A stretch of 64,000 nucleotides of DNA from Nitrospina sp. GTDB taxonomy: Bacteria > Nitrospinota > Nitrospinia > Nitrospinales > VA-1. Made by a program: the position numbers and the translations under genes. Positions 15,407-60,077 of the stretch are shown here, piece after piece (within the stretch, counting starts at the first letter, position 1; the number at the start of each line of letters is the position of its first letter). The stretch spans positions 1-64,000 of the forward strand of contig JABHBK010000034.1 in the NCBI GenBank assembly GCA_018673915.1. The letters run 5' to 3'. The notes beneath the pieces are model-generated. The model had not been told where the DNA came from. It worked only from the letters and a program-made list of their open reading frames with translations, and searched no databases.

Positions 15407-17503
15407 GTGATGATGAAACAATCTCAGAGTCCTTTAAAAAACACCTTTTTAAAAACCCTTGTCTGTCTGATATTTGTTTATTTGCTCGGACATATAAGCC
15501 CCATTCTTTCTGTCTCTTCTAATACCTTCTTTTCGAATCTGAGTTTTCAGGCCGTGGCATATGCCGAAGAAGATGATGAGGAAGATGAAGACGATGAAGA
15601 CGAAGACGATGAAGAAGGTGAAGAAGAAGGTGAAGAAGGTGAAGAAGGAGAAGCTGAGGAAGAAGATTTATCCTATCTAACCGATATCGGTCCAGCCGCA
15701 GAACATGAGTTTGAAGAATACTCCTTTCTAGGCATGAGCAACCGTAAGTTCACCTGGGCAGCAGCTCAGCTTCATATTCTTTTTGCTTCCTTTATTTTAG
15801 GTTGTCCCATGTTCGTGGTCATCATGGAGGTTATGGGTGCCCGTCGAACTCAGGGAGTTCGTAAAGCTATCATCCTATCAAACGTGTTCCTAGGAGTTCT
15901 CATAGGCGTTGTCATAGGGATCACGGGTGAAATCATAGTTGGAATCCATCATGGTGTGCTCTATGGCATGTGGGCTTGTGCTTTTGGAGCCTTAATCGTT
16001 AGTTTCCTGAATTATTTCCACCGCTTAATGAATATTCGGGCATCTGCCTTTGTTGGAGCGGTGTTCGGTGCCCTGATTTCCATGGGTCTGACTCCCGTTG
16101 AGCATTATGAGGTTTCCGGAATTATTCTTGCTCTGGTTAATGGTGCGGTGGGGGGACTACTCTCTAATGGCATCATGTTTGCCAAATCCGATTTCAAATT
16201 TGAACGTTTGTCTCATGAAATCACCAAAGTAATTGGCATTTGTTACAGTTTTACTGCTTTGACAGGTGGTCTCTTCCTCTTTGTCATGCTGGTTGCCTAC
16301 AAAGATTTCATTACTTATCTAATAGCCTCGTTTCCGACCCTTTTCATGGTGGCCTACCCCACACTGTTTATTCTGGAAACGGTGGTCATGTATATCTATG
16401 TCTATTCGTGGGATCCGCTGAACAAGGCCAACAAAAAAGGCCGTCATATCGTTACAGGTGTCATCCTGAATATTCTGGGGCTTTCTCTCCTAGTAGCTCT
16501 GGATGGACCTGCAACCTTCATGCAGACCCCAACAAAACCCCTTGACCAGCTTCTTAATATCAGCGAGTGGGATAGAATCGCAAATATGGCCTGGATGCCC
16601 TTGAATTATCACCGTCTCGTGGGCAATGGAACCTTTGGCGGTTATATGGTTTGCATCATCGGTGCTTATATGTACCTGTGGTCGGACAAAACAGAAGAGC
16701 GAGAATATTATGATTGGGTAGGTTACATTGGCAACTTGATAGGCGTTGCTATCATGATTCCCCTGCCTGCTATGGGTTATATTTTTGTCCGCGAAATTTA
16801 CCAATATGACGCAACCATCGGCATGTATATCATGTCCGACCGGGAGTCCATGTTCATGCTAGTGCAAGGGCTACTGGTAGGTACTATGTTTAGTGCCAGT
16901 AATATTTATATGTGGGTCAGTATGAAACGTATTGAGAATGCCGAGAGATTTTTCCCGGCCATGAAATTCGGATTCGTACTGATAGTTATATCTGCCACCA
17001 TCTGGTTTACGCCCCGACGATTTTTCGCGACCATGCTCCCTGAACCGGGCATGAACCCAGACATGGTTTTACCGGATAATCTGGCTTTTCTCGCCCTGAT
17101 GGTTTCAAAAAATACCGCAGCATTTTGTTTGGTGACGGTAACGTTCATCAACTACATCTTCTACACCATCGCCACTAAAACTGGAAAAGTACATTATGGC
17201 AAAGTGAATCCGTTAGGCCCTTATGTTCTCATTTTCCTTGGTTTTGCCGATATCTGGCTGATGAGCTGGATGGGTACCATTCGCGAACTGTCGAGAATGA
17301 ATTGGCATATATATAAAGTTTTCAAAGATGTAACTCCGGAAAAGTTTGCACCGTCCTTAGCTGAGTCGGGTTTCCACGTTACTACAATTGTTTGGACTTT
17401 TTTCATCCTGATGACAGCTATCATCTGGATCGGAATCAAGTATCCAAAAACTAAAAAGAAAGAAACTGAGCCTGCGCAAGCCTCACCGCAAATGGCCGAA
17501 TAA
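15407..17503 (+). CDS. cytochrome bd-oxidase subunit I-like membrane protein with acidic N-terminal tract
   Basis: A 698-residue integral membrane protein. Residues ~12-53 look like a long signal peptide ending in VAYA, followed by a 34-residue block of almost only Glu/Asp with Gly (54-87). About 14 hydrophobic helices follow. Parts recall CydA: AQLHILFASFILGCP matches the N-terminal helix whose His ligates a b-type heme; GIHHGVLYG, NYFHRL, NYHRLVGNGTFGG and LDGPATFMQTP resemble further CydA motifs. It lacks a recognisable Q-loop GRQPW motif. I infer a bd-like redox protein paired with the diheme cytochrome c gene 23 bases downstream. Similar bd-like proteins are known in nitrite oxidizers; the function here is not proven. 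ATG 15407 was used; a second ATG lies three bases later. Confidence 0.75.
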   Translation: MMMKQSQSPLKNTFLKTLVCLIFVYLLGHISPILSVSSNTFFSNLSFQAVAYAEEDDEEDEDDEDEDDEEGEEEGEEGEEGEAEEEDLSYLTDIGPAAEHEFEEYSFLGMSNRKFTWAAAQLHILFASFILGCPMFVVIMEVMGARRTQGVRKAIILSNVFLGVLIGVVIGITGEIIVGIHHGVLYGMWACAFGALIVSFLNYFHRLMNIRASAFVGAVFGALISMGLTPVEHYEVSGIILALVNGAVGGLLSNGIMFAKSDFKFERLSHEITKVIGICYSFTALTGGLFLFVMLVAYKDFITYLIASFPTLFMVAYPTLFILETVVMYIYVYSWDPLNKANKKGRHIVTGVILNILGLSLLVALDGPATFMQTPTKPLDQLLNISEWDRIANMAWMPLNYHRLVGNGTFGGYMVCIIGAYMYLWSDKTEEREYYDWVGYIGNLIGVAIMIPLPAMGYIFVREIYQYDATIGMYIMSDRESMFMLVQGLLVGTMFSASNIYMWVSMKRIENAERFFPAMKFGFVLIVISATIWFTPRRFFATMLPEPGMNPDMVLPDNLAFLALMVSKNTAAFCLVTVTFINYIFYTIATKTGKVHYGKVNPLGPYVLIFLGFADIWLMSWMGTIRELSRMNWHIYKVFKDVTPEKFAPSLAESGFHVTTIVWTFFILMTAIIWIGIKYPKTKKKETEPAQASPQMAE

Positions 17504-17526
17504 GTTTATTCAGGAGCAAAAGTGCA

Positions 17527-18786
17527 ATGAAAATTGATGTAATCATTGTTGGCATCATCGCCGCCTTGAGTGGTCTGTATGCCCTTTACAGTAGTTTTGG
17601 AGTTATCGGAGCTGGGGCCGGTCTTGCGGTCATGATCACTTATGCCCTCCTCCTCAAAGTTAGGCCCAAAAAGGTACAAGAGAAAACGTTTTTTCAAAAC
17701 GTCCGATTCAAGATCCCAGTAGTCATCGTTATAGCCGGAATTATTTGGGTCGTGGCGGGAAAATTCAATTTCCCCATATGGTGGCAGATTGAGTTTGTTT
17801 CTTTCGCCCTTGTGGGATTCTTTTTCTTCACCCTTCTGGATTGGAAAACACTCTCCCTAGAAAAATCAAGTTTCGATTGGATCAAGCGTCTATTGGCTAC
17901 TTATGCCCTCGCTTCGGGTATATTTATTGGCGTGACCGCGCAACTGCCACAATTTGATCCTGAGTATGAGCTTGCTAAGCTAAACAGACCCCCGGTTGTA
18001 TTAAGTGGTCTCGCTGGCCCTGAAGTCATCGCCGCCGGACGCGAAGTATTCGAAAATAATAAATGTTTCAACTGCCATAAAGTTTTTTGGGAAGGCAACT
18101 CAGACCGTGGCCCAAATTTGGGCACAAAGCAGATTGGTCTTTACTCCGAGGATTATATTAAAGATCAGATCCTCAACCCTCGAAGAAATCAAGCTCCAGG
18201 CTTTGAGGACCCAAAATCCAAAAAGGCCATGCCGACTTATTATGGCGATGACTTGAGTGAAGACGAGTTGTCCGCCCTGATATCTTATTTAAAAACAATG
18301 CGTGATCCCACTCATATGCCGGTTGAAGGCAAATTCCCCAATCAATGGACCTGGTGGGATGATAAAGATGTACTTGCTGAAGGCCAGCAGGTCTTTGAAG
18401 GTGTACATCCTGCAACAGAGGGACTCAGTTGCGCAGTCTGTCACGGCAAGGATGGTACGCCAATGATGACCGGCGCTCTTGATTTCAGAAATGAAAATAA
18501 TCCTGATACCAATAAAATTGAAGGCGATCATACGGACAAACTATTAAAAGATTGGCCGGATGACCTATGGTATCGCCGGGTTACCCGTGGTGTTCCCAAC
18601 ACGCCTATGGCTCCTTGGGGAATGATTTTCGAACATCTGTATCTCTGGAAGGCTGAAGCCTATGCCCGGACTTTCCATGATCCTCTGGACAAACGCACCG
18701 CCAAAAGGCCTGTGCCGCCTGTCCCCACCAAAGAAGAGGTAGAAAGCTGGAAAACGAAGGAGTTGTTCCTCGATCCGCTACTTTAG
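17527..18786 (+). CDS. membrane-anchored diheme cytochrome c
   Basis: A 419-residue protein with about five N-terminal transmembrane helices (residues ~5-145) followed by two class I-like cytochrome c domains that would face the periplasm. The heme-binding motifs are CFNCH (about residue 180) and CAVCH (about residue 302), with Met-containing segments downstream as possible axial ligands (MPTYYGDDLSEDEL and PMAPWGM). GGAGC precedes the start 23 bases after the bd-like gene, so the two form an operon, closed by a strong terminator at 18806. I infer that it passes electrons to or from the bd-like subunit, replacing the usual quinol-only input. Confidence 0.85.
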   Translation: MKIDVIIVGIIAALSGLYALYSSFGVIGAGAGLAVMITYALLLKVRPKKVQEKTFFQNVRFKIPVVIVIAGIIWVVAGKFNFPIWWQIEFVSFALVGFFFFTLLDWKTLSLEKSSFDWIKRLLATYALASGIFIGVTAQLPQFDPEYELAKLNRPPVVLSGLAGPEVIAAGREVFENNKCFNCHKVFWEGNSDRGPNLGTKQIGLYSEDYIKDQILNPRRNQAPGFEDPKSKKAMPTYYGDDLSEDELSALISYLKTMRDPTHMPVEGKFPNQWTWWDDKDVLAEGQQVFEGVHPATEGLSCAVCHGKDGTPMMTGALDFRNENNPDTNKIEGDHTDKLLKDWPDDLWYRRVTRGVPNTPMAPWGMIFEHLYLWKAEAYARTFHDPLDKRTAKRPVPPVPTKEEVESWKTKELFLDPLL

Positions 18787-18805
18787 AGAAATTTAAATTT
18801 TCATG

Positions 18806-18842
18806 AAGCCGGTCCCGTTTAACGGGGTCGGCTTTATTTTTG
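18806..18842 (+). terminator. intrinsic terminator of the bd-like/cytochrome c operon
   Basis: AAGCCGGTCCCG and CGGGGTCGGCTT form a 12-bp stem with two G-U pairs and a 5-base loop, followed by TTATTTTT. Confidence 0.8.
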
Positions 18843-18915: not shown

Positions 18916-19395
18916 ATGAGTAAAATTGATGACTTGGTAAAAGAAAACCTGCTAGAAGACGGCACTATCCTGCATCTTCGTGATAAATACATAGGCATAC
19001 GTGGTTGCATGGAACTTGCCACAAAAGAAGCCTTAAAAACTGTAACGCAACTTATTCTCCCAGGAAACCAGATTGCGGATGAAGGTTTGGAGGCACTGGC
19101 TGATTCTCCCTACTTAACCAATTTGGAAGCTCTCAATATCAATCACAATGATATTGGCGATGATGGAGCGGTCTCCCTGGCCAACTCAGAAAACTTACCC
19201 AGATTGAAAGAAGTTTCCATGTTCGGTAATGTTGTAGGAGATGTAGGGGCTCAAGCTTTCGCTAATTCTTCCCAAAGTAAAAAATACCTCAAACTGGATC
19301 TTTATAAAAACCAGTATACAGACATCGGTTATAAAGCTCTCACGGAATCAGAGAACCTGAAAAACTGCGAAGAACTGGAAGTCTATAGGGATTAA
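18916..19395 (+). CDS. leucine-rich-repeat protein
   Basis: A 159-residue cytoplasmic protein (no signal peptide) made of about four ribonuclease-inhibitor-type leucine-rich repeats of 26-28 residues: LTQLILPGNQIADEGLEAL, LEALNINHNDIGDDGAVSL, LKEVSMFGNVVGDVGAQAF and LDLYKNQYTDIGYKAL. This type mediates protein binding; no enzymatic domain is present and the partner is unknown. Repeats follow the LxxLxLxxNxIxDxG pattern closely. It has its own promoter and a hairpin after the stop codon. Confidence 0.82.
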   Translation: MSKIDDLVKENLLEDGTILHLRDKYIGIRGCMELATKEALKTVTQLILPGNQIADEGLEALADSPYLTNLEALNINHNDIGDDGAVSLANSENLPRLKEVSMFGNVVGDVGAQAFANSSQSKKYLKLDLYKNQYTDIGYKALTESENLKNCEELEVYRD

Positions 19396-20470: not shown

Positions 20471-23131
20471 ATGAATAAAAATATGAAAAAGAACCTATTT
20501 GTCTATGCGGCTATATTGCCCATATTTGTGGCTTGTATGGCATATTTTTTACCTATGGATAAACAATTTTTAAAAGATTTATACCGCAATTTTTATAATA
20601 GCAATCACGATTCAGCTATGAGTCTGGATTTAGGATTTTCACATCTTCGCAATGTATCCCTGGACGAAAGTAACTGGACTGTGTGGGGGAATATTAGTGG
20701 CTTGCTTTTAAAGACACCTAAAATAATATTTGAAAAATTTCGCGGTTTTCCTTCACGACCCACCATAAACACATTACATATCGCTATTAAATTTCGAAGT
20801 TACCAACAGTTGCTCAATGATCGTGAGCAAGCCATGGAAAAGGGTATTCTCCAAAACCCAAAAAAATTAAAGGCCAAAATATTTTTTAACGGAAAACAAT
20901 ATAAAACAGAGCTTCGCTTAAAAGGCGATAAATCGGAGCATTGGAGAAGCGAACACCGGATGAGTTTGCGTGTAGCCCTCAAGGGGAATAAAAACATTCT
21001 AGGCTTTAAAAAGTTTTCATTACATAAAATGGAAGCCAGGCAATTCCCATTTGACCATGTTTTTCAGTCGACAATAAGACGCCTCGGAAATTTATCGTCG
21101 GTACATAAATATGTGCGTGTTGTTATTAATGGGGTGAGTTGGGGAATTATGAATATAGAAGAACATATGTCAAAAGAGCTTCTCGAAAAACAAGGAAGAA
21201 AAGATTCAATAATCATGAAATTTGGGAATGAAAAAATATGGACCCTTGGACAACGTTCTTACCCGCATTACAGATTGTCTGACTCAAAACTTAATATAAA
21301 ATTATATTCTCAGAACAAATATTTAAAAAATAGAATTTTTAGAGAATGGTTTACATATGTTTCAGAAAAAAGACTCAATAAAGAAAATGATGAGTTATAT
21401 AGTTTTGACCATTATGCTATGGCATTAATTTTAGCTAAAGTCTGGAATAACACCCATACATTAAAGCCATCCAATGCACGACATTATTTCAACCCCTACC
21501 TGTTGAAACTAGAACCCATAACAGCAGACCAAGGTCACTATGCGCTAATTCGAGAAGACGACAAAACAGCCAAAACCCAAGATGAACCAAGTCAATTTAA
21601 TCCTATAAAATTTATTATAGAAGACATATATCAACATATAACAGAGACCGATAAATATAAGAAAAATTTTAACGCAAATTTCCTTTCCGTAGTGAATGCA
21701 CTAAAGAATATTGAGGATGAGTTTAGCATTGCTCAAATTTATTTCCCCATTAACAAGAAAATTATTCCTGACATCCTAAGCGTTAATAAAAGGATACTCT
21801 CTGAAACTTCAGATAGTGCAATCTCCAAAATAATACCCGAAGCTAAGGAAATCGATAAATTACAAATTATTAATCGACTACCAACCGACTTGCAAGCCAA
21901 GGAATTTTCACAACATTTACTTATTAGACATTATGAAGATGGAGAATTAAAAATTTTCAACTTGTTGCCTGACACTGTGAATCTCAAAAGTTTAATACTT
22001 GATGAGACCACAGAGCTGAATCTTGATGTGGCAGTTCCCGGTTTCTTGCCTGGAAATTACAAGCCATTTATTTATCAAACTAAATTACGGGGAATTTACG
22101 ACAATAGAATTATTTCAAAAACTGAATATAAAGGAAATGATCTAAGTCTCGCAATTGGCCCAACGTTTCTCAAGGGTTTACGAAATCCATTGTTACCTAC
22201 CAAAGTTAAAAACAACCGGGAGTATTTGAAAGAAACAGATGAAAACGTATGGCTCATACGTAGTGGAATATGGAATATTGATGAACCGATTGTTATTCAT
22301 GGGGACCTTACCATTGAAAAAGGGGCAGAGCTTTACTTCACTCAAGATTCCTACCTGATTGTTATAGGCTCCATTCAGGCAAAAGGCACGCTCGATTCAA
22401 AAATAGTTTTTGCTCCTCAGAATAAGAGCTGGAAAGGGATATATGTAATTGGTGATGGAGATAAATCCTCTGAACTAAAGAACGTAATAGTTAAATCTAC
22501 GTCTGGCCTTAAACATGGCATGCTCAATTTGTCCGGAGGTGTAACTTTTTATCATGCCAATGTAGAAATTGAAGGTGCGCACTTTGAAAAGACTCTTGCA
22601 GAGGATGCATTAAATATTGTTAAGTCTAACTTTTCATTAAATGATATTCGATTTCATGGAACCAGTTCGGATGCTTTGGATAGCGATTTTTCTAGTGGAA
22701 AAATTGTTAATTCTGTCTTCAATGATATTGGAGGAGATGCTCTGGATTTTTCGGGCTCACGTTGTACCATTAAAAACGTAGAAATATTCAATGTCCAGGA
22801 CAAAGCTTTTTCAGTAGGTGAAGTGAGCACTATTACAATAGAGAAAGCACAAATAAACAAAATTGGTATTGGTATCGCCTCTAAGGATGGAAGTAGTGCT
22901 ACAATTTCTAACTCCAAAATAGAAAACTACACACTTCATGCTGCAATGACTTATAACAAAAAAGGATTTTATGAGGGTCAACCACGCATAGAATTATATG
23001 AAACTGAGGTAGATGGCGATCATCCCTTTGCTAAACAAGAACAAACAAGTTTACTGGTTAATGGGGTTGAATTTCCCGCAGGCAATATAGATGTTCAAGC
23101 GTTATATCAATCAGAAAAAATTCAAAATTAA
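20471..23131 (+). CDS. CotH-like kinase-fold protein with C-terminal beta-helix
   Basis: An 886-residue protein. Residues ~7-27 are a hydrophobic signal/anchor. Residues ~110-420 resemble the CotH family (KAKIFFNGKQYKTELRLKGD, NGVSWGIMNIEEHMSKEL and a later ITADQGHY), the spore-coat-type secretory protein kinase fold found also outside spore formers. Residues ~590-840 are a right-handed parallel beta-helix with repeated short strands (ENVWLIRSGIWNIDEP, GGDALDFSGS, TISNSKIENY). The combination suggests an extracytoplasmic surface or matrix protein that phosphorylates or binds partners, but no substrate can be named. It is locally AT-rich. The leader upstream may control translation. Confidence 0.75.
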   Translation: MNKNMKKNLFVYAAILPIFVACMAYFLPMDKQFLKDLYRNFYNSNHDSAMSLDLGFSHLRNVSLDESNWTVWGNISGLLLKTPKIIFEKFRGFPSRPTINTLHIAIKFRSYQQLLNDREQAMEKGILQNPKKLKAKIFFNGKQYKTELRLKGDKSEHWRSEHRMSLRVALKGNKNILGFKKFSLHKMEARQFPFDHVFQSTIRRLGNLSSVHKYVRVVINGVSWGIMNIEEHMSKELLEKQGRKDSIIMKFGNEKIWTLGQRSYPHYRLSDSKLNIKLYSQNKYLKNRIFREWFTYVSEKRLNKENDELYSFDHYAMALILAKVWNNTHTLKPSNARHYFNPYLLKLEPITADQGHYALIREDDKTAKTQDEPSQFNPIKFIIEDIYQHITETDKYKKNFNANFLSVVNALKNIEDEFSIAQIYFPINKKIIPDILSVNKRILSETSDSAISKIIPEAKEIDKLQIINRLPTDLQAKEFSQHLLIRHYEDGELKIFNLLPDTVNLKSLILDETTELNLDVAVPGFLPGNYKPFIYQTKLRGIYDNRIISKTEYKGNDLSLAIGPTFLKGLRNPLLPTKVKNNREYLKETDENVWLIRSGIWNIDEPIVIHGDLTIEKGAELYFTQDSYLIVIGSIQAKGTLDSKIVFAPQNKSWKGIYVIGDGDKSSELKNVIVKSTSGLKHGMLNLSGGVTFYHANVEIEGAHFEKTLAEDALNIVKSNFSLNDIRFHGTSSDALDSDFSSGKIVNSVFNDIGGDALDFSGSRCTIKNVEIFNVQDKAFSVGEVSTITIEKAQINKIGIGIASKDGSSATISNSKIENYTLHAAMTYNKKGFYEGQPRIELYETEVDGDHPFAKQEQTSLLVNGVEFPAGNIDVQALYQSEKIQN

Positions 23132-58103: not shown

Positions 58104-60077
58104 CTAGGCTTTCACTTCTTTCTGCGGTATGAAGTCATCCAGGCCCGCACCATTTTTAATGGCATCTTCCATCATCTTCACGGACTCCCGAATTCCTTCT
58201 TCACAGACGTCCAGAGAAATATCCCGGATATCGTTTTGCGAGCACCAGGCCATCACCCGGTTTTGGGTATTGTCCCGCATAAATCCTTTAGGGACACGCT
58301 CCAACCGTTCCAAAGCTTCTGGCGACCAGTTGAAATCTTCGGCATTCAAAGCAGCCCCAATACTGAGGATGTCGCCCGGAATTCCTTCACTGGCCCCATT
58401 GTCATTGTCATCTTTTTTAATTTTCTCATTCAGGATTTTATCGAGGAATGCCGCAGAAACCGTATTGACCTTCTGAACCCGAGCATTTTTCTCAACACGA
58501 GCATGGGCTTTCCTTCTCAAATGCCCCTGAGGGAATGAGTTAAGCTTGTCCAATGCCTCCTGTGTCCAGGATACTTGCACACCATCAGGCAAAGTTGTAA
58601 AGGTAGTGGAATCCTGAGCCTCTGCTTCTGTAGCTTGGTACTCTTCCTTGTTAACGGGAAGCAAGCGTTCCGGACCCGCATTACAAACAGTACACTTAAC
58701 AACGTCACCTTTGTAAAAAGTATTACAACTGGTACATTTCAGTGTGATCTCTTCTGGAGGCTTACCAGCATGAGCTTCTGCCATTTCTTCCTTAAGCATG
58801 CCCAGGCCTTCCGGATTATTCGGATCCATCCCTTCATTCTTCATTCTCTCACCAATTGCAGACATAGCCTGCATCGCACCAGCAGGCAAAATCTCCTGCA
58901 CCGCTTCGGTGATAACACTGGAAGTGATCATGCTATGGCCCCGCTCCAACGCATAACGCAGGATCGCGGAAGTCGCCATCGGTCTTACAAATCCAGGAAT
59001 TTTCTTCAATCGCTCTTTGCCTTCAGCAGTCCACTCAATGCTTTCTTCTGCCTGCATATCTATCGGCGGCTTAAATACTTTACTGGAAAGCAGGATGTTG
59101 CAGGGAACGAGACGTAATAGGTTCTCGGTATTGCCTCCAATATCCATATCCGGAGCACTGTGAACACCGATCCGTCCCAAAATCAACAAATACGGGTTCT
59201 CTTCCCTTGCGTATTGCAAAACTTTTTCGAAAACCTTGCCATCCAAAAGACGAATGGTGCATTCAATATCTTCTTCTTCACAGACCTTCCGGGAAATCTC
59301 CAGATGAGCCTGATAGATTTTTGCCAATCCTTTATCGATGATGTCTTCATGAAGCTTTTCCTGTTGCTCAAACTTGAAAACTTTGGAAGCTTCGCGTGAC
59401 AATACACCGGTCAGACTGTTAAACATTGCATAGTGAAAGTAGGGATCGAAGGTAGAGATGACTTCCAGAGGCCGATTCAACTTTTTGGCCATTTCGATCC
59501 CCGTCATCAACCCACCAAAAGAATGACCACTACCATCCACTGCAACCACAATCTTTCCACTGGAAGGCCGGTCGTCATGAATCTCCGGGCAATGCTTCAC
59601 AATCAGCATATCTTTGTTAGAACGACGAATTACTCTTTCTGCAACGGACCCAATCAAGCTGTCTTTAATGGCACCAAGCCCCAATGCACCCATAATTACC
59701 AGGTCGTACGGGGATTCTTTGATATCCCGAACCAGCTCTGTCCAGTTACGCCCTTCAAGGGATTTACCCACAAAAGGAATGTCCAGTTCTTTACATTTTT
59801 CTTTGGGAACATCCAGATAGGAATCACTGATAACTTCCATTCCTTTGGTGATCAACTGATCATGAATATTCCGTTGCTTTTCTAATTCCTCTTCATCCTG
59901 ATATTCCTCAGGAAGCCCGCTCTCCATTTGGCGAAACCGAACATCATGCATTTTAGCGGCATAAACATGGCTTGCAGAAATGGTCGTATCTGATCCTTTG
60001 GCGAACTCAAGCGCCAAGTCAACACAGGCGTTGGAGTAATCAGAATTATCTACCGGTATATAAATATTCTTAAACAT
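58104..60077 (-). CDS. tandem universal stress protein fused to PCP_red-like domains and a zinc ribbon
   Basis: 657 residues, no signal peptide. Order: USP domain 1 (1-162) with the ATP motif GALGLGAIKDSLIGSVAERV; USP domain 2 (174-333) with the related GRIGVHSAP motif; a PCP_red-like region (347-395, WTAEGKERLKKIPGFVR) resembling the C-terminal part of the light-independent protochlorophyllide reductase B subunit; a zinc ribbon with C448, C451, C462 and C465; and two more WxxEAxxxLxxxP copies (502-552 and 582-640). No other photosynthesis gene is present. Function is not known; it may bind nucleotide and a metal or tetrapyrrole. Its promoter is at 60220-60247. Confidence 0.82.
   Translation of the reverse strand: MFKNIYIPVDNSDYSNACVDLALEFAKGSDTTISASHVYAAKMHDVRFRQMESGLPEEYQDEEELEKQRNIHDQLITKGMEVISDSYLDVPKEKCKELDIPFVGKSLEGRNWTELVRDIKESPYDLVIMGALGLGAIKDSLIGSVAERVIRRSNKDMLIVKHCPEIHDDRPSSGKIVVAVDGSGHSFGGLMTGIEMAKKLNRPLEVISTFDPYFHYAMFNSLTGVLSREASKVFKFEQQEKLHEDIIDKGLAKIYQAHLEISRKVCEEEDIECTIRLLDGKVFEKVLQYAREENPYLLILGRIGVHSAPDMDIGGNTENLLRLVPCNILLSSKVFKPPIDMQAEESIEWTAEGKERLKKIPGFVRPMATSAILRYALERGHSMITSSVITEAVQEILPAGAMQAMSAIGERMKNEGMDPNNPEGLGMLKEEMAEAHAGKPPEEITLKCTSCNTFYKGDVVKCTVCNAGPERLLPVNKEEYQATEAEAQDSTTFTTLPDGVQVSWTQEALDKLNSFPQGHLRRKAHARVEKNARVQKVNTVSAAFLDKILNEKIKKDDNDNGASEGIPGDILSIGAALNAEDFNWSPEALERLERVPKGFMRDNTQNRVMAWCSQNDIRDISLDVCEEGIRESVKMMEDAIKNGAGLDDFIPQKEVKA

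Follow-up and report, generated by a model that had tools for sequence, protein, structure and literature searches.

What could supply electrons to a cytochrome bd-like protein whose gene lies beside that of a c-type cytochrome? The question is raised by two adjacent genes in a 64,000-nucleotide stretch of Nitrospina sp. DNA (positions 1 to 64,000 of contig JABHBK010000034.1, assembly GCA_018673915.1; hereafter the window), which encode a 698-residue CydA-like membrane protein and, 23 nt further on the same strand, a 419-residue diheme cytochrome c. An earlier note on this DNA had proposed that the paired cytochrome points to an electron input or output other than quinol, and that the pair is a shared module known loosely from nitrite oxidizers. 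Our analysis retains the c-type coupling of a CydB-less CydA-like protein and gives up its identity with the known nitrite-oxidizer module. With modest confidence we lean towards a cytochrome-c-fed O2 reductase subunit of the OR-N branch of the cytochrome bd superfamily, in which the quinol site is missing; the OR-N family was reportedly defined by Murali et al. in 2021. Three features make exchange of electrons with c-type hemes the best reading: the CydA-like character of a protein that lacks CydB, the want of any recognisable quinol loop, and the link to a membrane cytochrome c with two hemes. The source genome, a Nitrospinaceae metagenome-assembled genome (MAG) of 3.15 Mb and 92% completeness, holds one further bd-like gene, on contig C18, whose product is 31% identical to the window protein over the aligned part; relatives of the two are called W-type and C18-type here.

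A CydA-like protein and its cytochrome partner

Both open reading frames (ORFs) were found again in the window with the limits and the 23-base gap claimed in the earlier note, the first beginning with GTG followed by an ATG codon, and the shared terminator that it had described is seen as a terminator-like hairpin after the pair. The CydA profile of Pfam (PF01654) matches residues 255-457 of the W-type protein with 28 bits (E 9e-7), slightly above its cut-off of 26.2 bits; NCBIfam gave no match over cut-off, and a sequence search of solved structures returned 0 matches for either protein of the pair. The AlphaFold2 (AF2) model of the W-type protein (window 15410-17500), of low confidence at a predicted local distance difference test (pLDDT) score of 55, aligns in VIA-align with ten CydA entries over 309-353 residues at Z 21-24 and a root-mean-square deviation of 3.9-4.7. 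Structure prediction, which the earlier note had called for, has therefore returned the CydA fold, from a model of low confidence. The model shows about 15 helices of membrane length and, in addition, a hydrophobic segment at the N-terminus, so that the previous count of ~14 helices was slightly low. The next structural matches after CydA are to chain C of alternative complex III (6btm, 8k9e; Z about 17 over ~280-300 residues), well above the remaining structures (Z 7).

In E. coli CydA, H19 is the ligand of the high-spin heme, and H186 and M393 are those of heme b558. We aligned 51 distinct W-type ORFs and the window protein with 54 distinct C18-type proteins and E. coli CydA, identical rows having been removed beforehand (70 to 51 and 57 to 54, respectively). 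In this alignment H123, E324 and H402 are the equivalents of H19, E107 and H186, and M565 is probably that of M393, an equivalence made less sure by the weakness of the profile alignment over the C-terminal half. The H19, H186 and M393 equivalents are conserved in 48/48 W-type rows that reach them (4 gaps) and in 54/54 C18-type rows, and the E107 equivalent in 50/50 and 53/54, respectively. The CydA-like heme-ligand motifs that had been claimed are thus present, and the alignment proposed as a check on them finds them kept in homologues. On both fold and H19-type ligand, the W-type protein belongs to the CydA-like cytochrome bd superfamily.

The Q-loop residues that serve quinol in E. coli are K252 and E257. 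A canonical Q-loop is not recognised in the W-type protein, where the E257 column is gapped in all rows of an alignment that is weak there and where other helices occupy the region. The second subunit of canonical enzymes, CydB (PF02322), has no match at E<=0.001 anywhere in the source genome (control matched in 10/14), which upholds its claimed absence and extends it beyond the gene cluster, where a CydB gene would have told against the earlier interpretation. No gene lies between the two members of the pair, CydX not having been searched genome-wide, and the heme-copper oxidase subunit COX1 (PF00115) likewise gave nothing in the source genome at E<=0.001.

The 419-residue partner matches PF00034 and PF13442 of Pfam, and its AF2 model, of low confidence as well (pLDDT 57), has five N-terminal helices; model, Pfam and motifs agree with the five-helix, two-CxxCH cytochrome described before. 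C180, H184 and M235 on the one hand, and C302, H306 and M361 on the other, occur in each of 24/24 close rows, and the 25th row, the distant protein L041, has the CxxCH motifs without the Met residues. The same locus is the odd one among 35: relatives 77-94% identical are labelled Nitrospina, Nitrospinaceae or other Nitrospinota at 34 of them, and L041, of lineage not known, is 35% identical and belongs to the other paralogue type.

How firmly are the two genes joined? Of 70 W-type ORFs, 11 were set aside for want of sufficient downstream sequence; at all of the 59 that could be tested (at least 600 nt downstream, gap between -200 and +400 nt) a CxxCH protein comes next on the same strand, also outside Nitrospinota, which answers the search for the same pair in other genomes that had been suggested. 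These loci hold 43 distinct C-terminal sequences, since some genomes are represented by two copies and one of the loci is the window itself in truncated form. Pairing at 59/59 loci excludes chance. At L127, a locus of another phylum, the partner is 32% identical to the window cytochrome over 377 columns (E 3e-51), with the helices and the c domains, and is on this alignment a true relative of it.

Paralogues, insert and gene surroundings

In a 40-row tree the W-type proteins form a single clade (100/100), which lies on a long branch of 1.94, and the Nitrospinota C18-type proteins form another (100/100); the root is unsure because the canonical rows are long-branched. On contig C18 the bd-like gene is followed by genes for a cytochrome c of 454 aa whose N-terminal part carries hydrophobic segments and which is weakly similar to the window cytochrome (E 8e-5), for a 321-aa membrane cytochrome c (helices of both by eye) and, last, for a diheme protein of 593 aa that includes an EB_dh-like domain. 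This cluster fits the bd-like module that the literature links to nitrite oxidoreductase (NXR), and for this reason the window pair is not that published module: it forms a separate clade with a different cytochrome, and NXR or alternative NxrC genes, with which the module clusters, are not among its neighbours. "Loosely known" also undersells the family, which is better framed in print and fits the OR-N group as presented in the parts of PMC10839748 seen here.

Within the order of the window, represented by 64 genomes (G000, G004-G066) in which presence was counted by hand, 56 carry the W-type, 57 the C18-type and 50 both. All 28 genomes that are at least 90% complete (good genomes) have both paralogues, at least as fragments. 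COX1 over cut-off is found in six of the 28 (G004, G016, G019, G023 as a fragment, G024 and G029) and CydB in four (G010, G012, G016 and G029). Weak COX1 matches below the cut-off, similar in size, recur across many Nitrospinota genomes; they were rejected as oxidases on the one case inspected (L142 1430-2362), which is not a full oxidase because it is a 310-aa protein with few COX1-like helices and a soluble C-terminal part. The C18-type query was run against 242 genomes, 77 in the phylum and 165 outside it, and matches 11 of the latter, ten of them with C18-like proteins and one, the 100% complete G138, with a W-type protein and no C18-type.

Two further features mark the window protein. A four-helix insert between CydA helices 1 and 2 occurs in 55/77 genomes of the phylum, all within the window's order (55/64, against 0/13 outside it), and no relative of it was found elsewhere in the phylum at E<=0.001. 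All of the 38 distinct proteins that carry the insert keep its residues E175, H181, C191, Y203 and H205; the W-type proteins from outside Nitrospinia (L072-L076 and L127) lack it, and two others that lack it in the alignment, L028 and L095, are truncated Nitrospinia copies. Of 68 residues counted in the N-terminal region of the window protein, moreover, 34 are D/E and 0 are K/R. The same 38 proteins have a median of 33 D/E in this acidic tail (range 0-42), the low values likely coming from rows cut short at the N-terminus. Among the six proteins from outside Nitrospinia the tail is present in L074, without the insert, and absent from the other five.

At those six loci the surroundings are of another kind. 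A molybdopterin oxidoreductase gene lies upstream on the same strand at four (L072, L073, L075 and L127), a separate Fe-S protein upstream at L072, L073 (by eye) and L075, and a small one-CxxCH protein at L072, L073 and L127; genes for NrfD, a Tat-signal Fe-S protein and a cytochrome with four hemes are also close by at L072 and, on the opposite strand, at L127. L074 shows none of these redox genes and L076 offers too little upstream DNA. Judged by gene order, these W-type genes would sit in a redox chain ending in c hemes; the contexts resemble alternative complex III, and an alternative-complex-III-like chain that ends in a bd-like protein is possible. In Nitrospirales, OR-N5 genes are reported beside alternative complex III (PMC12342949, seen in part).

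The neighbours of the pair in the window are rlmN and genes for a glycosyltransferase, a LAB_N protein, a leucine-rich-repeat protein and a CotH protein. The leucine-rich-repeat gene is small and directly follows the terminator (18916-19395), and the CotH protein is 886 aa long and combines CotH kinase and beta-helix domains (20471-23131). A protein of 657 aa in which a PCP_red domain accompanies two universal-stress domains is encoded far downstream in the window (58104-60077). Elsewhere in the source genome an NxrB-like fragment, cut at a contig end (G000:C34 end, L093), lies beside a TorD-like gene (names by eye); this fits a nitrite oxidiser whose nxr genes appear to have been broken by the assembly.

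Features of the pair in the window (positions in window numbering unless a contig is named) and the paralogous cluster
Feature	Position	Strand	Basis
Gene for W-type bd-like (OR-N-like) membrane protein, 698 aa	15407..17503	+	PF01654; CydA fold, Z 21-24; tree
Hydrophobic segment at the N-terminus (residues 10-38), either signal peptide or anchor	15434..15520	+	hydropathy; model helix 9-27 (numbered from residue 2)
Acidic tail, residues 53-86, likely periplasmic (predicted topology)	15563..15664	+	
H123, equivalent of E. coli CydA H19	15773..15775	+	alignment
Four-helix insert specific to Nitrospinia, residues 146-258	15842..16180	+	model, genome search, alignment
E324, equivalent of E. coli E107	16376..16378	+	alignment
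H402, equivalent of E. coli H186	16610..16612	+	joint alignment and profile alignment
R537-R538, within the segment replacing the Q-loop	17015..17020	+	alignment
M565, probable equivalent of E. coli M393	17099..17101	+	joint alignment; weakly aligned region
H634, invariant in both paralogue types, just past the segment aligned with E445-GRQPW	17306..17308	+	alignment
Gene for the 419-aa membrane diheme cytochrome c, with five helices at the N-terminus and two c domains	17527..18786	+	
CxxCH 1, C180-H184; Met235 likely distal ligand	18064..18078	+	
CxxCH 2, C302-H306; Met361 likely distal ligand	18430..18444	+	
Intrinsic-terminator-like hairpin, 16 pairs, T-rich tail	18803..18837	+	
C18 cluster: bd-like gene and three cytochrome genes	G000:C18, L007 3102-9280		

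A proposed route for electrons and its alternatives

If the pair is a cytochrome-c-fed O2 reductase subunit, its two proteins would act as a single functional unit. Periplasmic c-type or blue-copper carriers, with nitrite oxidoreductase as the ultimate source of electrons in Nitrospinia, would reduce both heme-c domains of the cytochrome, a 419-aa protein that its five helices would hold beside the 698-aa protein. From heme c the electrons would pass to a low-spin heme b on H402 and M565 and on to a high-spin heme on H123, the site of O2 reduction, with protons drawn from the cytoplasmic side. In the predicted topology the N-terminal segment places the acidic tail outside, where it would probably help in docking the electron carriers, and the five helices place the c domains outside as well; an insert of four helices, an even number, would keep the CydA topology. 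The W-type protein may work beside the C18-type paralogue or as a heteromer with it. The same functional guess has been published for OR-N or bd-like proteins (PMC10839748, PMC10579370; both seen in part).

Several observations weigh against this proposal. E445, a ligand of the active-site heme, is conserved in neither paralogue type, which leaves the second active-site heme without a sure ligand: none of 48 W-type or 54 C18-type rows has a Glu in the column of canonical E445 and GRQPW, E99 is conserved in neither type, and the window residue that hhalign places under E445, E627, is S or T in the W-type proteins L074 and L076 and S in the C18-type. The invariant H634 is a candidate replacement ligand. 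The window protein is further set apart from its relatives by the insert and by R537-R538, whose position reads TPH in most C18-type proteins and RH in the W-type proteins from outside Nitrospinia, a group difference that the alignments indicate to be real. (A first reading by eye took E445 to have become His in the C18-type, WxTPH, and to be lost in the window protein, WFTPRR; it was rejected because the order of the helices, the profile alignment and an alignment of more sequences all place this motif among the helices that stand where the Q-loop would be.) Both proteins have low-confidence models, the genomic data come from MAGs, and 20/28 good genomes are without COX1 over cut-off and without CydB in a survey in which alternative oxidase was not searched. 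The paralogues also occur apart, the C18-type without the W-type in other phyla and the W-type without the C18-type in G138, so that a heteromer is not obligatory across bacteria. Finally, no purified or assayed OR-N protein was found in the literature text available to us, and a 2024 paper calls OR-N subunit composition and function unconfirmed (PMC10839748, in the parts seen).

Electrons might also run in the opposite direction, the pair serving as a cytochrome-c-to-quinone module that, like a reversed bc1 or alternative complex III, feeds reverse electron transport from nitrite, which we consider rather unlikely. Such a role has been suggested in print for the NXR-linked bd-like protein (PMC3578206, PMC6606698; parts of both), and it would suit the match of the AF2 model to alternative complex III chain C (Z 17) and the two loci outside Nitrospinia whose molybdenum-cofactor (Moco), Fe-S, NrfD and multiheme c genes form an alternative-complex-III-like set. 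It sits poorly, however, with the absence of the canonical quinol loop and of a recognised quinone site and with the retained H19 high-spin ligand, and it would leave the C18-type alone to reduce O2 in those 20 good genomes. Doubtful, too, is a division of labor in which O2 is reduced at the C18-type and the W-type protein is its non-catalytic partner (A'), be it as scaffold, as electron relay from the diheme c or in proton conduction. The joint presence of both types in every good genome, the published CydAA' idea of associated OR-N1 and OR-N2 (PMC10839748, seen in part), the long W-type branch and the lack of the RH/TPH histidine in the Nitrospinia form all speak for it; yet the H19, E107, H186 and M393 equivalents are equally conserved in both types, and the complete genome G138 carries the W-type only.

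That the pair detoxifies O2, NO or peroxide instead of respiring is very improbable; detoxification is known for canonical bd enzymes (work cited in PMC10839748, seen in part), but the pair is near-universal in its order, most good genomes have no other recognised oxidase, and no stress genes directly adjoin the pair in the window. Distinctly unlikely in our view, at the ambitious end, is a W-type protein that forms with the diheme c a self-sufficient bd-fold cytochrome-c oxidase, in which E175, H181, C191 and H205 of the insert, a domain gained in Nitrospinia, bind a further cofactor or form a proton path, which separates charge or pumps, and which serves abundant marine nitrite oxidisers as a main O2 reductase. 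The cytochrome-c-fed O2 reductase subunit remains the reading that we favor.

Relation to known bd-type systems

The route from cytochrome c to O2 in Nitrospina-type bacteria without a heme-copper oxidase is a stated open question (PMC8026999, seen in part). For this route the window pair is a compact candidate that can be tested heterologously and is separate from the NXR-linked paralogue; it may be part of how the Nitrospina group breathes, because most good genomes show no other obvious oxygen-reducing enzyme. The finding of the paralogues together in all good genomes of the order, and apart elsewhere, also bears on the CydAA' idea. If O2 is indeed reduced with cytochrome c, the bd superfamily gains a cytochrome-c oxidase branch.

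The W-type protein shares with canonical cytochrome bd (CydAB; structures from E. coli, Geobacillus and Mycobacterium) the fold and the H19, E107, H186 and probably M393 equivalents, and differs from it in lacking CydB, the Q-loop and conserved E99 and E445 and in having extra helices. The NXR-linked module of Nitrospina, Nitrospira and anammox bacteria, made up of a bd-like oxidase (a name in use since 2013; PMC3578206), c cytochromes and an alternative NxrC (PMC3578206, PMC8026999, PMC6606698; parts of each), resembles the window pair in superfamily and in its neighboring c cytochromes; in the source genome, where C18 represents it, it stands at the distances given above. Kustd1711 of Kuenenia (7zs0) is the best structural match of one window c domain, at a modest Z of 8.7 over 89 residues with 25% identity. 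It is a diheme cytochrome c encoded in an nxr gene cluster, with hemes near +350 mV, and unlike the window cytochrome it is a three-domain protein for which the parts of its description seen here report no five-helix anchor (PMC11791136).

The closest kin is the OR-N family. We take the window protein as a probable OR-N member because all but four of the named Nitrospinota CydA cases are placed in OR-N1 or OR-N2 (PMC10839748, again in part), and by its sequence it fits the quinol-site-less OR-N type, a kind already known; that paper also presents the OR-N idea, a cytochrome c as donor and the CydAA' hypothesis. Relative to the literature text available to us, what is new is the 59/59 pairing, the Moco operons, the insert and acidic tail, the separateness from the NXR-linked module and the 28/28 co-occurrence; no description of the insert, the tail or the five-helix diheme partner was found in that text, and supplementary tables, which could not be searched, may list them. 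Like Nitrospinota OR-N1 and OR-N2, the window protein is CydA-like, without CydB and without a recognised quinol loop, comes from the same phylum and has a cytochrome c as its proposed donor. The source genome's two paralogues fit the two reported clades without a one-to-one assignment. Unlike OR-N1 and OR-N2 as described in those parts of PMC10839748, the window pair has a four-helix insert, an acidic tail and a dedicated five-helix diheme cytochrome c.

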